This document shows, piece by piece, positions 1,950 to 15,413 of a DNA stretch of 44,031 bases; the first letter of the stretch is position 1, and every line of letters begins with the position of its first letter. Source of the DNA: Epulopiscium sp. Nele67-Bin005 (GTDB lineage: Bacteria; Bacillota; Clostridia; Lachnospirales; Cellulosilyticaceae); the NCBI GenBank assembly GCA_002007365.1, contig LNZR01000066.1, positions 1-44,031 on the forward strand, in the 5' to 3' direction. The notes below the pieces were generated by a model. The model had not been told where the DNA came from. It saw only the letters and a list, made by a program, of their open reading frames with translations, and ran no database searches. The position numbers and the translations under genes were made by a program.

Positions 1950-2439
1950 ACACTGTAAAAAGAGCTCAGGGGATGTAACTTCATGCAGTCTGATGTGCAG
2001 CTGTCAGTTCACGTCACTTTGTGACGATTTCTTTGAATCTGTGTTCATGTTTTATTGATTTTAAAGACATTCATGTTGTTTTTCTCTGAATGAAACAAAT
2101 CACTGTGCCACACTCATTAGTGAACACGACGCAGCGTTTAAATTTAACAATTTGAAAAACTGATGAAAGTCTCTGCAACCAAAAACATGACATTACTACA
2201 AGCATTTTAAAACAAGATGAAGAGCTGAAAAATGTGATCACACTGGAATATTTGCCTTGTTTCATCAGTTACAGACAGAAACTGCTCAAAGGAGATTTTC
2301 TTCTCAGAGTTTTAGTGTGATGAGCTGTAGAGTTCGAGCACTTCATGCTGCTGCAGGTTGATCCTCTGTGATTGACGGCCCAATATGAGCAGGTCGCGTC
2401 TTTCAGGCCTCGATGACAGAAAAGTTCATTTTCTTTCGT

Positions 2440-3696
2440 CAGGACACAATCTATTTGATTTTGATTTTGCAAACTTAAAGCATTATTTTTTTCTATATCA
2501 AAATTCAAAATATCAACTTCTCGTTGCTTATCAAAAATAGCTTGGCGAATATTTTCTAATTGTTGTTGTTTAGTAGCTTTTTCTTGTTTAAACTTATCAA
2601 AATCTTGTTCTAATTGCTCCAACTGCTTGACTTTTGCCGCTTTTTCAAGATTTAAAGCAATTTGTTTTGTATTTGATAATTCTATTTGATGGTTTAAATT
2701 TGCGATGTTGTCACTAGCATTTTGATTGACCTGTGCAATATCTTCGAGGAATTTCTCAAAATTACACACTCTTTCTTTAGAAACCTGAATATGTGAGTTA
2801 GCCTGTTCTTTAGTTTTTTCTAATTGTATGATCTTCTCACTCAAATTATCAATACTTTTTTGGACTTCTATACGTGAATTTTTGGCGTTCTCTTGCATCA
2901 CTACCAAATTATTTTTGCGAGTTTCTTCCTTATTATACTGTAAATTTACAATTTCTAAATTATTTTTGGAAGCCTCAATTTGGTTTTTAATTTGCGTATC
3001 TTCGTTCAAAAATAAATTGATATCTAATACTTTTATTTCATCTTGTAACTTTAAATATTGCTTTGTCTTCTCAGCCTCAACCCTTAGTGGCTCAAGCGTT
3101 CTTTCAATTTCGGAAACGATATCATCAACTCTTAATAGATTTTCTCTCTCTTTGGAGAGTTTTTGCCAAGCTTCTTGCCGACGAACCTTAAATTTATAAA
3201 TCCCTGTTGCCTCCTCAAATAAATTACGCCTCTCCTCAGGCTTTGAGCTTAACACCTTATCAATTTGACCCTGCCCAATAATTGAATACCCATCTTTTCC
3301 AATTCCAGTATCCATAAAGATTTCTTGAATATCTTTTAAACGGCAGGAAGCCCCATTTAAAAAATATTCACTTTCGTTAGAGCGATAAATACGACGTTTA
3401 ATAACTATAGTTTTAAATGCAATAGGCACACTATCTTCATTTTGAATAGTTAATGAAACTTCTGCAAAACTTAATGGGCGTTTTTCTTGAGTCCCTGCAA
3501 AAATCAAGTCTTCCATTTTTGATGCTCGCAACGATTTTGCGCTTTGTTCCCCCAAAACCCAACGAATTGCCTCGGCTATATTACTTTTCCCACTTCCGTT
3601 TGGACCAATAATCGCTGTAATTCCTTGAGGAATATCAAGTTTTATAGTTTCATCAAATGATTTAAAACCGTGTATCCCAACTTTTTCCAGATACAT
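2440..3696 (-). CDS. smc: Chromosome segregation protein SMC, N-terminal part only (truncated at contig chimera)
   Basis: MYLEKVGIHGFKSF..., Walker A GPNGSGKSN, coiled coil follows. The ORF call to 2269 runs into eukaryotic sequence. Confidence 0.93.
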
Positions 3697-8064: not shown

Positions 8065-9066
8065 TTAATCTACTTGTTGAGCTTGAACTGCAGTAACAGC
8101 AACTACCCCAACAATATCTTCTGCACTACAACCACGAGAGAGGTCATTTACAGGCTTTGCAAATCCTTGAGTAAGTGGTCCATAAGCTCCAGCCTTTGCA
8201 AGTCTTTGAACTAACTTATAAGAAATATTACCTGAGTCTAAGTCTGGGAAAATTAATACGTTTGCATCTCCAGCTACAGGGCTATTTGGTGCTTTAGCTT
8301 TGGCAGCATCTGGAACTATTGCAGCATCAACTTGTAACTCCCCATCAACTTTTACATCTGGCATAATTTCTTTTGCAATTCTAGTTGCCTCAACAACTTT
8401 ATCAACATCTGGGTGTTCTGCACTACCATAAGTAGAGTGAGATAACATCGCTACAATTGGTTCTGCTTCCACTAATTGCTTAAAGCTATTTGCCGAACTT
8501 TTTGCAATTTGAGCTAATTGTTCAGCTGTTGGATTTTGGTTTAGTCCACAATCTCCAAATACGAAAATTCCATTATGCCCACTTGTGCAATTTGGAACGT
8601 CTATGATGAAAAATGTTGATGCAACCTGTGTTCCTGGTTTAGTTTTTAAAATTTGTAATGATGGACGAAGAACATCAGCTGTTGAGTGAACTGCTCCTGC
8701 AACAACACCATCTGCCATTCCTTGTTGTACCATCATAATCCCCAAATGAACAGGGTCTTTTAAGAATTTTTTTGCCTTTCCTTCCGTCATACCTTTACGC
8801 TCTCTAAGTTTTACAAGAGCCTCGATATAAGCTTCTTTGTGTTCAAAAGTTTTTGGATTTACTACAGTCGCCTTAGAAATATCTAAATTTGCTTCTTGAG
8901 CCATCTCAGCAATCTCAACCTCATCTCCAATCAGGATTAAATTTGCAAATCCCTCTTGTAAAATAATGTGAGCTGCCTCCAAAGTACGGATATCCTCAGG
9001 TTCTGGTAATGCAATAGTTTTAATTGAATTTTTTGCGTGAGCTTTAATTGTTTCTAAAAAAGACAT
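8065..9066 (-). CDS. pta: Phosphate acetyltransferase
   Basis: PTA_PTB-type sequence with GVVAGAVHSTADVLRPSLQI; adjacent to ackA. Confidence 0.97.
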   Translation of the reverse strand: MSFLETIKAHAKNSIKTIALPEPEDIRTLEAAHIILQEGFANLILIGDEVEIAEMAQEANLDISKATVVNPKTFEHKEAYIEALVKLRERKGMTEGKAKKFLKDPVHLGIMMVQQGMADGVVAGAVHSTADVLRPSLQILKTKPGTQVASTFFIIDVPNCTSGHNGIFVFGDCGLNQNPTAEQLAQIAKSSANSFKQLVEAEPIVAMLSHSTYGSAEHPDVDKVVEATRIAKEIMPDVKVDGELQVDAAIVPDAAKAKAPNSPVAGDANVLIFPDLDSGNISYKLVQRLAKAGAYGPLTQGFAKPVNDLSRGCSAEDIVGVVAVTAVQAQQVD

Positions 9067-9251
9067 AAAATTCCCCTTTCATTTTTAATTGATAAGTTAT
9101 TCTTTTTATATTATAGACAAAATGTTCTATGTATACAAGAGAAATTTGCAATTTTTTTAGTTATTTTCACGTTAAATTTGTAACATTTGGAAGGTTAAAG
9201 TATTTATAAATCTTTTTAACTCGAAAATATGGAGTTATTTCACTTTTTCTC

Positions 9252-9280
9252 ATGACATTTTTCATAAAATGACTTATAAT
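9252..9280 (+). promoter_or_regulatory. Putative sigma-A promoter for the tandem unknown genes
   Basis: ATGACA - 17 bp - TATAAT upstream of the 9348 start. Confidence 0.5.
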
Positions 9281-9347
9281 ATTCATAGAACTATTATATT
9301 AAAATTTTATAATTTATTAATCATTAACCAAATAGGAAGGAGTTACT

Positions 9348-10733
9348 ATGTTACAAGAAGATATTGCAATTGAGTTATTAACACCAGCAGAATTTAAGAG
9401 TTTTCCACTAATTATTGGCGATGATATAGAAACAATGGACAAATACATTGTTGATGTATTAAAGAAAAATAAAGCCAACACTAAGTTCAAAAATTTTACA
9501 AAAATCTACGCTTCAAATGAGGATATTTCTCTTCATGAAGATGGTCAATATGTGGGGTTACCATTTATTGATAAATACTTTAAATACAACTCACTTAGTG
9601 AACTTGTTAACTATGTTAAGGAGGCACTAGAACGCAAAGAAAAATTTTTCTTATATTTAAATACTCGCTACAAAGTTCGACCAGATATTGACCCAGAAAA
9701 TAAGTGGGACAACAAGCAAAATGACGCTAAATATTTGGACGAATTACTAACTTTATTAACTAATGCAAAAATGGAATGCATGGTAATTAAGAAATATGAA
9801 GATGAAAATGAAGTTGTTTCTTTTATGTTAGAACGCCTTATAAAAGAAGTCTTTGTCTTTACTTTGGGCAAAAAAAATACCCACCTCAAAGGAATTACAA
9901 AAACACTAAAGCTAGATGACCGTCAAAAAATGGTTCATATTAAAAATGGAATGGAAAGGGATATGCCTTTTGATAGAAATAAAGTCTCTCCTAGCTATTA
10001 TGTAACTTTGCCTCGTAGTAAAGATATATACGAAGATTTAGTTTGTAACAAAGCTCTAACAGAAGAACTTAAAGAAATTTGTGCCTTAAACGCAATGTAC
10101 AAACGTAATGTAGAAGTTGCATATTGGCCTCTTCCATTAGAACAAAAGCTAGAATTTGCAACTGATAGAGGTTGTGAGAGGGTATATTGTGCCAATACTC
10201 AAGTAAAAACCGAGTTAGTTAATTTAATACTTAACGAAGGTCAAAAAATTTCTAGTGAAGAAGTTGAAGTTGTTGTTGTTGATGCGTCTTCAGAACTCAA
10301 AAATTTATCTCAAAAATTCAAAAATGTTTATTGTGGTCAAGAAGAAACTCAAAAATTTGCTTATGACCTCTACGAAAAAGTAGTAGGGAGAATTGAGCGT
10401 TTGGACAACTATTTTAATGGTGATGTTATTAAATTTAGAAGTTATCACGCCAAAAAAATTATTTTAATTAACGGAGTTGATAGCGAAGAAATTATTTACC
10501 CAATCAATTTAGAGAAATTACATAATAATCCTCTAATCGAAATGGTGGTAGAATTTGGAAATATTCTTGGGTTACACATTATTTTTCTAAGTAATGAACG
10601 CCCTACAGTTTCTAATAATGTTGATATTAATAGAAGAATTATGGCGTTTGGGCTTAATCAAACTCACCCAAATATTAATCTTACAATCCAAGATGTTGAA
10701 AATTTTTCTGTAGATATGTATACGTTAAGATAA
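9348..10733 (+). CDS. Unknown protein, paralog 1; C-terminal region resembles a degenerate P-loop (FtsK/EssC-like) ATPase domain
   Basis: 461 aa; RBS aggaagg. C-terminal half aligns by eye to the next gene: VEVVVVDASSELKNLSQKFKNVYCG vs IEVIVLDSMGELSPLKATYPNVFTG. Confidence 0.75.
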   Translation: MLQEDIAIELLTPAEFKSFPLIIGDDIETMDKYIVDVLKKNKANTKFKNFTKIYASNEDISLHEDGQYVGLPFIDKYFKYNSLSELVNYVKEALERKEKFFLYLNTRYKVRPDIDPENKWDNKQNDAKYLDELLTLLTNAKMECMVIKKYEDENEVVSFMLERLIKEVFVFTLGKKNTHLKGITKTLKLDDRQKMVHIKNGMERDMPFDRNKVSPSYYVTLPRSKDIYEDLVCNKALTEELKEICALNAMYKRNVEVAYWPLPLEQKLEFATDRGCERVYCANTQVKTELVNLILNEGQKISSEEVEVVVVDASSELKNLSQKFKNVYCGQEETQKFAYDLYEKVVGRIERLDNYFNGDVIKFRSYHAKKIILINGVDSEEIIYPINLEKLHNNPLIEMVVEFGNILGLHIIFLSNERPTVSNNVDINRRIMAFGLNQTHPNINLTIQDVENFSVDMYTLR

Positions 10734-10760
10734 TTTAGGCAATAATCCAAGGAGGTCAAA

Positions 10761-12077
10761 ATGGAAGCTACTCAAAATAAATACGTTTTACTACTAAATG
10801 AAAATACTATTGATTGTGCAACATACATTCAAACAGATGTAATTGGAAGTTTACAAGCTAATCAACCAAACTTACAATCAATTTTTGCAATGCCTATTAC
10901 TAAAGAAGAAACAGCTAAATATCGCATGGTGTTTATGCCTGAAATAGATTTTTTTCTAACTTACAAAAATCTTGATGAAATTTTTGAAGCCCTCAAAGCT
11001 AAATTTACAGAAGCCGATAATTTAGTTTTGTTTTTAAATATTGATGCTAATACAGCAAAAAATATTGCTCCTAAACTAGAAGAATTTAAAGCTAAGCTCA
11101 AAGTTTTAAAAATTAGAGTTATTTGCGTTATTGATATTGATAATAAACAACAGTTATCCCAACAATTTTTTGATATTTTTGATATTAAGTTTGGATTTTA
11201 TGATGCTGAAAACAACGTTATTTTGAAAAACTTAAACATTATACCAAAGGATAAAAGTTATAATACTGTAGTTTTTGGTGAAGAAGAAGCAAAGTTTTAT
11301 AATACTAGCACTGATGAAGCTGAAATCTCTGAAATTATTAATTTCCCTCAAAATAAAGAAGCACTTTCTTCCTTATTAGAGGAGAAAATTTTGAGTGATG
11401 ATTTAACGAGTATTTTAAATGATGATGCAATTTATTTGCGTGACCAACAAAATATTTATATTCCAATTAATACGACAGTTAACCCAACCCCAAAAACTCC
11501 AACTGCTCTAAATCTTGGAAATCATAAATCTATTAGCGTTGTTCAGTCAGAAAATGCTGAGATTAAAAATAAATTTGTATCTAACGTTCTCACTTCTGCC
11601 AAATTTGTAAACAAAGAAAATATTGAAGTTATCGTTTTGGATAGCATGGGTGAGCTTAGCCCCCTAAAAGCTACTTATCCTAACGTTTTTACTGGCAAAG
11701 ACGGAGTTCGTGAACAAATTTTAAACTTTGATAAATTGCGCAAAAATAGAGAAGTGTTTTGTAAAACTTTTATGAAAGAAGATTTTTCTTTAGTCAATCA
11801 ACACTTTAAACATTACGTTTTTATTATAAATAATGAGCAAACTTTTGAAGATATCAAGTTGCTTGCAAAACAAGATATTGAAGATGAGTGGTTGAGTAAC
11901 AAAGACGGACTAAATTTTCATATTATATTTTTAGCTGATGATATTAATCAATTTAATTATGATGAAAAACATTTAGATAAAAGAATTATAACTATGATTA
12001 ACCCACAAACAAACCATACTACATTAGTATGCCAAGATTTCTCTACACTTTCGGTAGATGCATTTATTTTAAAATAA
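10761..12077 (+). CDS. Unknown protein, paralog 2 of the preceding gene
   Basis: 438 aa; RBS ggagg. Shared motifs include HIIFLADD vs HIIFLSNE and C-termini FSTLSVDAFILK vs VENFSVDMYTLR. Confidence 0.75.
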   Translation: MEATQNKYVLLLNENTIDCATYIQTDVIGSLQANQPNLQSIFAMPITKEETAKYRMVFMPEIDFFLTYKNLDEIFEALKAKFTEADNLVLFLNIDANTAKNIAPKLEEFKAKLKVLKIRVICVIDIDNKQQLSQQFFDIFDIKFGFYDAENNVILKNLNIIPKDKSYNTVVFGEEEAKFYNTSTDEAEISEIINFPQNKEALSSLLEEKILSDDLTSILNDDAIYLRDQQNIYIPINTTVNPTPKTPTALNLGNHKSISVVQSENAEIKNKFVSNVLTSAKFVNKENIEVIVLDSMGELSPLKATYPNVFTGKDGVREQILNFDKLRKNREVFCKTFMKEDFSLVNQHFKHYVFIINNEQTFEDIKLLAKQDIEDEWLSNKDGLNFHIIFLADDINQFNYDEKHLDKRIITMINPQTNHTTLVCQDFSTLSVDAFILK

Positions 12078-12089
12078 TTTGGAGGAAAC

Positions 12090-13310
12090 ATGAAAATTAC
12101 AGGTATCGTTGCAGAATATAACCCCTTTCATAATGGGCATCTTTATCAAATTGAATATGCAAAAAATAATCTTAATTCTGATTTTGTAATAGTTGTTATG
12201 AGTGGAAATTTTTCTCAACGAGGAACTCCCTGTATTTCTGATAAGTTTACTCGCTCAAAAATGGCTTTATCTTGTGGGGCAGATATGATTGTTGAACTGC
12301 CTGCTCCACTTGCTACTGCCAGTGCTGAACGATTTTGTGAGGGAGCAATTTCTATTTTGAATAAATTAAATTGTGTAGATGTTGTTTGTTTTGGAAGCGA
12401 AAACACCAATTTAGAACTAATGAACAACATTGCACAACTATTAATAAATGAACCACCTAGTTATTCTAATTTAATTAAACATAATTTAAAAGAAGGAAAA
12501 AGTTATCCTCTAGCACGGGAACTTGCAATTATAGACCATACCCCAAATTATTTGCATGAAAATATTAACCTCGATAACTTTTTACGGCAACCTAACATAA
12601 TTTTGGGAATTGAATATATTAAGGCCCTTATTAAATTTAGGAGCAATATTAAACCATTTCCAATTAAAAGACAAGTATCTAATTATCATGATACTGAAGT
12701 TTTTCATCATTTTGCATCGGCTACAGCACTCCGACAGGCCTTTTTGCAACAAGATAATGAAGCTCTACAACAAGCTATGCCTCAGCAATCTTTAAATTAT
12801 TTACAAAATCAAATATATTTTGCAAATATAGAAAATATAAATTCTACATTGCACTATAAATTATTGCAAGAGGATAATAATAATTTGTGGGATACTCCAC
12901 CTAAATTATTGCATACAATTTATAATAGTTTTGGTCAATGTAGTAGTTTTTTGGAATTAGTTAATAAATGTAGTTCAAAAACTTATAGCAAAGCTACAGT
13001 TTATCGTACTTTGCTTAGAATTTTATTAAATGTTACATCTGATAATATGGAAATTTTACAACAAAACGACTGGATACCTTATATTAGAATTTTGGGTTGC
13101 AAAAAAGAAGCTCTACCTTTAATTTCCAAAATTAAACAAACTTCAAGTGTTCCGATTGTTATTAATCTAAAAAAAGATTTATCTACCCTATGTCCTATAG
13201 GAAAAATTTTGTTAAATTATGATATAAAATCTACCCAACTATATCATTTGTGTACAAACCAAACTCATCTGTACAAGCAAGATTTTACAGAACGATTTAT
13301 AATTTTATAG
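12090..13310 (+). CDS. tmcAL: tRNA(Met) cytidine acetate ligase TmcAL / YlbM-type nucleotidyltransferase
   Basis: MKITGIVAEYNPFHNGHLYQIEYAK and VVMSGNFSQRGTPCISDKFTRSKMAL are diagnostic. Confidence 0.93.
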   Translation: MKITGIVAEYNPFHNGHLYQIEYAKNNLNSDFVIVVMSGNFSQRGTPCISDKFTRSKMALSCGADMIVELPAPLATASAERFCEGAISILNKLNCVDVVCFGSENTNLELMNNIAQLLINEPPSYSNLIKHNLKEGKSYPLARELAIIDHTPNYLHENINLDNFLRQPNIILGIEYIKALIKFRSNIKPFPIKRQVSNYHDTEVFHHFASATALRQAFLQQDNEALQQAMPQQSLNYLQNQIYFANIENINSTLHYKLLQEDNNNLWDTPPKLLHTIYNSFGQCSSFLELVNKCSSKTYSKATVYRTLLRILLNVTSDNMEILQQNDWIPYIRILGCKKEALPLISKIKQTSSVPIVINLKKDLSTLCPIGKILLNYDIKSTQLYHLCTNQTHLYKQDFTERFIIL

Positions 13311-13430
13311 TAGGATTTGTTAATAAAATTGTATAGTTTTGACGAGTTATGTATTATATTGCTAGAAACTTATAAATATGATATACTTAAAACGTTCGAT
13401 ATATTCAATTTACAGAAAGGACAGATATGC

Positions 13431-15413
13431 ATGGAAGATAAACATAAAAAGTTATCCTCTCGTATTAACTTCATTTTTAGTTGGCTTATTGTATTTTTAA
13501 TATCTATAGTTACAGGGCTAGAAGTTATCAACCTTGGTATCCTTGTAGAAAACGACGCTATAAATGATGTTTTAGTTAATGCCAAACTTGCTAATTATCG
13601 TTTTCGTGATTGGTTAGTTAGCAAAACAGAAGTAATTCATACTTTAGCAAATGATATGCGATATAAAGAAAACTATAACGATTTTGATAATTTAGAAGAT
13701 TACTTTAAGGCTCAGTTATATAACAGAAGCGAAATAGATATGATTTATTTTTATAACTATACAGAAGATAAATTTATAAATTCTGCTGATTGGATACCTG
13801 ACGCTAGTTTTATACCATCTCAAAGACCTTGGTATAAGGGGGCTATTGATACTGAAAACGAATTTTTTATTACCGACCCGTATATTGATGCACAAACTGG
13901 CAAATTATTAGTAACGTTATCCACACCTTTAATAGATAAAACTGGAGATTTTAGAGGTGTTTTAGCAATGGACGTTAGTATGGAAAGTTTTGAACTTATA
14001 ATTGATGATTTATCCACAGAAAATGGAGGATATTTATTCATCACAACTAGCAATAATGATATCGTAATTCACCCAAATCCAGAATATAAACCAACTATAG
14101 AAGAGGTTCACAATTTAGATAGTTTAGTTGGGGAATATCGACTTATCCTTGCACATGATGAAAATTATGTACAGACTATAGCAACGGATTATGGTCCAAA
14201 AACTTATAGCACTTATATAAATATTCCTGATACAACTTGGAAAGTTATTTCTAGTTATCCCGTAAATACAATCCAAATTTATATTTTTGGGCAAATTGTA
14301 TTTGGTGTAGTGCTTAGTTTATTTGCAATTTTATTAGGAAGAATTACAATCAATAGATTTATTAAAGTTTATATTTCACCTCTTGATTATATTGTGGCTG
14401 GTTTAAATACAATCAAAGAAGGAAAATTAGATTTTCAAACTGACCAAATTCCTAAAAATAGTTATGAAATTGCAGTATTAGTAAATGGTTTTGAAGAATT
14501 TACTCATATTTTAACTGGGTATATCAATGAAATTTCTGATATATTACATAGTTTTTCTTATGGAGATTTTACTAACGAACCAAAGCAAACTTACATTGGG
14601 GATTTTGCTCGTATACAAATTTCTTTTGAGGAAATTTCAAATAACTTAAGAAAATTTTTGGCCGAAACTACTTATGCTACAGGTGAAGTTAACGTTGCTG
14701 CGGAACATATTGCAAATGCTGCTGTTGAATTAGCTGATACTTGCCAAGCCCAGTTTGATATTTTACATTATTTTAAAGCAGATACAAAAAATGTGACTCA
14801 AGATTTAATTACCAATATTGACGATATCGGTCAAACTCATATTATCGTTCAAGAAGTTGTAGAGAAAGCTGATAGTAGTAAACAAATTTCAACAGAAATG
14901 GTTGAAGCTATGCACAATATTAGCACTTCTACCAAACATATCGCTGAAGTTATGCAATCTATAGAAAATATTGCTGACCAAACAAATTTACTTGCACTTA
15001 ACGCCACTATAGAAGCTGCAAGAGCTGGAGAAGCCGGAAAAGGATTTGCAATTGTTGCATCTGAAGTCCGTGAATTGGCAGTAAAAACATCTGAAATTGT
15101 GCAGGAAATTCATGGGATAATTGGGAAAAATCTTGAAAGTGTTAACCGTGGAGAAGAAATTGTTATTAGTACAAACAAAGCATTAGAAGAAATTGTGGAT
15201 ATTAGTCAAAAGAATATCCACATGTCATCTAAATTAAAATTTGCAACTATTAAACAACATGATGACTTAGAAAAAGTCATTGTAGAAGTTGAGAAATTGT
15301 TTGAAGAAATTGCAAGAACTACTGGTGTTGCTGAAGAAAACGTAGCTGTTAGCCAAGAACTTTTAGCTCAAAGTCAGCATCTTCGTATGCAAATGGAATA
15401 TTTTAAAGTATAA
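13431..15413 (+). CDS. Methyl-accepting chemotaxis protein with periplasmic Cache-type sensor
   Basis: Two TM segments flanking a dCache-like region ([36 protein letters not shown]); signalling hairpin [36 protein letters not shown]. Start moved to ATG with an agaaagg RBS. Confidence 0.93.

Follow-up and report, generated by a model that had tools for sequence, protein, structure and literature searches.

A tandem pair of unclassified paralogues with putative degenerate EssC-like domains in the pta–tmcAL gap of Epulopiscium sp. Nele67-Bin005

Two intact, homologous genes for previously unclassified proteins, hereafter P1 and P2, are inserted in the divergent gap between pta and tmcAL of the anaerobic bacterium Epulopiscium sp. 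Nele67-Bin005, within a window (the whole stretch of DNA that was analysed) of 44,031 nucleotides. Profile comparisons support an EssC-type fold for the C-terminal half of both proteins, whose Walker motifs are lost, and we lean towards regarding P1 and P2 as soluble, duplicated pseudo-ATPases with tandem RecA-like domains of the FtsK/EssC type, which would form a non-catalytic heteromeric scaffold or regulator. The features of the locus are as follows, in window positions:

8065–9066, minus strand: pta, the divergent neighbour, normally 119–219 bp from tmcAL
9252–9280, plus strand: candidate sigma-70-like promoter (ATGACA-17-TATAAT) upstream of P1, with 11 of 12 matches
9348–10733, plus strand: P1, 461 aa, putative tandem degenerate EssC/FtsK-like alpha/beta protein
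9399–9803, plus strand: P1 N-terminal module, residues 18–152, as predicted in the AlphaFold model
10053–10730, plus strand: P1 C-terminal module, residues 236–461, putative EssC-like degenerate ATPase domain (hhalign, D3 HMM, motif scan)
10761–12077, plus strand: P2, 438 aa, paralogue of P1
11385–12074, plus strand: P2 C-terminal module, residues 209–438, putative EssC-like degenerate domain (D0 HMM, alignment A3)
12090–13310, plus strand: tmcAL, 12 bp downstream of P2

Results

An intact homologous pair in a conserved divergent gap

Both open reading frames are intact and start with ATG behind strong Shine-Dalgarno sites (GGAAGGAG, AAGGAGG), 27 bp separate them, and their codon usage and GC content by codon position agree with those of the adjacent genes. 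P1 and P2 are homologous throughout (BLASTP, 63.5 bits, E = 3e-15), with 21% identity over 441 columns, and the N-terminal halves resemble each other less (shuffle Z = 4.9) than do the C-terminal halves (Z = 17.8); a preliminary description of this DNA, which had delimited the same two frames and read them as tandem homologues of a common layout, is thereby borne out. The N-half of the pair does not match its C-half in profile and shuffle comparisons. Neither protein has a clear transmembrane helix by 19-residue hydropathy, the maximum being 1.8 in P1, within the C-half, and 1.0 in P2.

Across the same GTDB family, tmcAL is present in 22 of 24 genomes, that of the host counted, and pta is its direct divergent neighbour at 20 of these 22 loci, as expected from the proximity of the two genes noted earlier, with a median gap of 170 bp; in Epulopiscium sp. 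Nele67-Bin005 this gap is occupied by P1 and P2. In the nearest relative by tmcAL identity (G005), the locus is rearranged and no pta was found next to tmcAL. As such sites occur in the region at chance level, the promoter upstream of P1 is a candidate only; no terminator-like site was found across 8900–13600, and P1, P2 and tmcAL are probably co-transcribed. Position is all that ties the pair to tmcAL, and the association may be accidental. A methyl-accepting chemotaxis protein is encoded directly after tmcAL (13317–15413), and in several family genomes a ylbJ-like sporulation gene seems, by eye, to follow tmcAL. Elsewhere in the window, which has no Rfam match, the left contig end (1–3700) looks misassembled or chimeric, the smc frame at 2269–3696 (minus strand) has an unrelated-looking tail beyond residue ~430, and the GC skew shifts near 1–2000.

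Relatives and known families

Neither protein is claimed by any Pfam, NCBIfam, PHROG, PADLOC or PDB sequence family, in keeping with their first designation as unknown proteins, and current profile libraries do not recognise them. By the tests made they also stand outside the EssC family, NCBIfam TIGR03928 matching neither, and both fall below the gathering threshold of PF01580 (FtsK_SpoIIIE). No EssC was retrieved when PDB sequences were searched with P1 by itself or with a profile of the C-half. The family-library matches that did appear are sub-threshold noise (HrpE/YscL, 0.0026; Fe-hydrogenase, 0.016; phrog_4040, 0.0029).

Searches of about 790 genomes sampled from the family, the order and the phylum (24, 392 and 399 genomes, respectively, the sets overlapping slightly and containing no further member of the host genus), five EssC-bearing family genomes included, returned no relative of P1 or P2, and neither did those of phage, plasmid, viral (IMG/VR) and GTDB contig collections, the GTDB and IMG/VR scans being made with a few peptide patterns whose reach is limited to close relatives. 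To date a single genome, a draft that is 89% complete, is known to carry the pair, and residue conservation is read from P1 and P2 of this genome alone. Two weak matches of the A1 profile are due to chance, one in G001 (E = 0.02) to an unrelated frame that resembles an rpf-type 3D-domain protein and adjoins ksgA, the other in G510 (E = 1e-4) lying inside MiaB; a third, in G371 (E = 0.006), spans 59 columns in a 164-aa frame broken by TGA. When a joint profile of EssC and P1/P2 was run over the 392 order genomes, the strong matches were long EssC-type frames and the pair itself, with no stand-alone intermediate among them, and a few short or weak matches fell in frames of 627, 738 aa and smaller.

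Profile comparison with EssC domains

Twelve EssC proteins from related genomes were split into their D0 (DUF), D1, D2 and D3 domains and compared with the halves of the pair. The C-half matched D0 with an hhalign probability of 86% (pairwise E = 4.6e-6) and D3 with 38–48%, and did not match D1 or D2, while column-shuffled queries (200 per target) reached 3.5% at best and the controls (reversed, Pta, TmcAL, SpoIIIE) at most 0.5%. A broader D0 alignment lowered the probability to 50%, but this was not a clean repeat, since the set included some adjacent D2/D3 sequence. The N-half showed no sequence match to any EssC domain (probability at most 0.3%), i.e., an EssC-type RecA-like domain is recognisable by profile in the C-half only.

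Single-domain HMMs were each decisive for one paralogue: the D3 HMM scored 14.4 bits on P1 at residues 285–424, where 1,776 scored shuffles reached 8.9 at most, and the D0 HMM 13.4 bits on P2, where 1,881 shuffles reached 8.7 at most, whereas D0 on P1 and D3 on P2 both stayed inside the shuffle range. Against 268 natural frames, the D0 HMM placed P2 first behind the 12 EssC proteins (next frame, 4.4); with the D3 HMM, P1 was outscored by FtsK/SpoIIIE proteins and tied with ABC proteins of the P-loop type. Pairwise Z values of the pair to single EssC domains are modest (mean at most 2.0). The earlier reading of an eroded EssC/FtsK-like domain has thus survived three tests, namely profile–profile comparison with controls, domain HMMs against backgrounds of shuffled and of natural sequences, and the unbiased Foldseek search of the PDB described below.

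Loss of the nucleotide site

A motif scan found the Walker A pattern [AG]xxxxG[KR][ST] in neither protein, as the preliminary description had it. When aligned by eye to the EssC consensus 'yGspgtGkTtLlq...yilDfgg...lphv', P1 reads YCANTQVKTELVN...VVVVDASSELKNLSQKFKNV and P2 reads VQSENAEIKNKFV...VIVLDSMGELSPLKATYPNV. At the Walker A position P1 has CANTQVKT, in which K-T is kept and the glycines are lost; the Asp of strand 2 is kept in both proteins; and on the Walker B strand (KIILIN in P1, YVFIIN in P2) N replaces D. What had been proposed as a Walker B-like strand with a final D (VEVVVVD / IEVIVLD) is instead the strand that follows helix 1 in FtsK/EssC ('yilDfg'), because the consensus alignment places Walker B at a later strand. 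The Walker motifs are lost from both proteins, which with the residues for ATP binding and hydrolysis gone are predicted pseudo-ATPases; as P1 retains the Walker A Lys-Thr, residual nucleotide binding may persist. Degeneration of this kind has precedents: the published D0/DUF domain also lacks the Walker A Gly, Lys and Ser/Thr and binds no ATP (PMC11154593), and in S. aureus EssC canonical motifs are present in D1 and D2 and missing from D3 (PMC9436818).

Predicted structures

AlphaFold2 models built on a two-row alignment are of low confidence (mean pLDDT 37.5 and 41.4, below 50 over most of the chain); they have a similar strand–helix order in each half, with a topology that may be RecA-like, suggesting two alpha/beta modules per protein. 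The P1 N-terminal module is predicted as strand-helix-strand-strand-helix-strand-helix-strand, with pLDDT block means of about 75–83 in parts of residues 51–100 and lower values elsewhere. In a Foldseek search of 350,542 PDB chains, the P2 model retrieved EssC 5fv0 at ranks 1–2 (prob 0.85 and 0.82, 442–453 columns), with EccC 4n1a, EssC D3 6tv1 (prob 0.92) and EccC 4nh0 among the top 18, FtsK 2ius (prob 0.75), and Rossmann-like folds such as universal stress proteins and von Willebrand A domains; the P1 model retrieved the tandem-RecA protein KaiC, EccC 4n1a and 4nh0, EssC 5fv0 and EccCb1-D2 (9jv8). Since TM-scores are low, about 0.1–0.2 against the tandem structures of EssC and EccC, and no E-value is below 0.001, these lists are ranking evidence and no proof of fold.

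In the suggested check by AlphaFold and Foldseek, EssC came first for P2, on models of poor quality. Of the D3-like domain first proposed, the EssC-like character of the C-half is upheld by the profiles, and its counterpart may be D0, D2 or D3. As the models appear to have an alpha/beta module in the N-half too, P1 and P2 each look like a tandem unit of D2-D3 type and not like one D3; the models thus hint, weakly, that the N-half is a second module of the same type as the C-half.

Type VII secretion and FtsK genes

In the host assembly (89% complete), neither EssC (TIGR03928) nor a WXG100 match above the family cut-off was found, which makes a role of the pair in type VII secretion unlikely and leaves the link to this system drawn at the outset without a footing; full EssC is present in five of the 24 family genomes. 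A match to the FtsK/SpoIIIE ATPase family occurs in 22 of the 24, and no such gene was found in the host genome, where TIGR03928 gave nothing and PF01580 only sub-threshold P-loop matches, one of which (contig 57) is an ABC-F ATPase and not FtsK; this reflects either assembly gaps or loss. The missing spoIIIE, with a chemotaxis gene where several family genomes seem to have a ylbJ-like one, is a hint that sporulation may be absent from this lineage. Related genomes also contain stand-alone FtsK-like ATPase frames of 431–451 aa (L066, 7197–8513; L067, 7425–8777; L068, 2387–3679), possibly coupling proteins of integrative elements, which were dropped as relatives of the pair, having one ATPase domain that matches EssC D1/D2.

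Discussion

The history that we favour would begin with an old duplication giving two soluble proteins, each of two tandem FtsK/EssC-type RecA-like modules that shed their residues for ATP binding and hydrolysis. The pair would have entered the pta–tmcAL gap as a unit in the host lineage, to be transcribed together with tmcAL, and P1 and P2 would associate by way of their RecA-like faces, the resulting heteromer acting, without catalysis, as a regulator or as a scaffold that binds peptides or a partner. The heteromer and its scaffold role are inferred by analogy with degenerate EssC/EccC domains, for which regulatory roles have been proposed (PMC11154593). A more specific version, in which the pair represents a lineage-specific family of pseudo-ATPases, EssC D2-D3-like, duplicated and free-standing, that left type VII secretion and became a heteromeric scaffold tied by its operon to tRNA modification (TmcAL), is possible but doubtful.

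Among the alternatives, the proteins might belong to another alpha/beta superfamily, of the Rossmann or receiver type, and resemble EssC through fold convergence and chance. The poor models, the universal stress proteins and von Willebrand A domains in the Foldseek lists and the modest pairwise Z values would all fit this account; we nevertheless hold it unlikely, as EssC heads the whole chain collection for P2, type VII ATPases recur for P1, and in overlapping regions of both paralogues no shuffle reaches the profile scores.

Mycobacteria have split EccCa and EccCb proteins, and P1 and P2 could likewise belong to a type VII secretion system of divergent kind, as a split D2-D3 unit resembling EccCb, with the membrane components encoded in the 11% that the assembly lacks. 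The P1 match to EccCb1-D2, the EssC proteins elsewhere in the family and the incomplete assembly speak for such a system, but it is improbable given that EssC and WXG100 were not found, that the nearest genes of the pair are housekeeping genes and that none of the EssC-bearing family genomes has a relative of P1 or P2. That the pair is what remains of the FtsK-like coupling ATPase of a mobile element, now functionless and in decay, has little to recommend it: its restriction to one lineage, its insertion in a conserved gap, its lost catalytic motifs and the FtsK-like proteins of similar length in the family would agree with decay, but the frames are full length and in frame despite their mutual divergence, have native codon usage and good ribosome sites, match no mobile element in phages or plasmids, and appear to hold two modules where those proteins have one ATPase domain.

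If P1 and P2 are indeed soluble tandem pseudo-ATPases, dead type VII ATPase modules can leave the translocon and persist as a stand-alone pair, which would add a family unseen by current profile libraries and offer a clean soluble system for asking what degenerate EssC/EccC domains do other than hydrolysis.

Of the known systems, FtsK/SpoIIIE (PF01580) would share with the pair the wider P-loop family at the level of fold (2ius), whereas P1 and P2 have neither a PF01580 match nor Walker motifs. The D0 (DUF) domain of EssC/EccC (PDB 8rin, PMC11154593) is the best profile match to the C-half and has likewise lost the glycines of Walker A and the catalytic acid of Walker B, but in the EssC set it is without the strand-2 Asp present in P1 and P2, and unlike them it is placed after a transmembrane stalk. 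In contrast with EssC as a whole, P1 and P2 are free-standing and duplicated, without FHA, transmembrane, D0 or D1 parts and without the Walker A and B of an active D1, and other type VII genes were not found alongside. They resemble EssC D2-D3 (5fv0) and D3 (6tv1) in what the models predict to be two tandem RecA-like modules of about 450 residues in all, D2-D3 in the order strand-helix-strand(D)-'NV/HVGG'-helix-strand-helix-strand, and D3 in a degenerate ATP site, and we infer that they work like a degenerate EssC D2-D3 unit.
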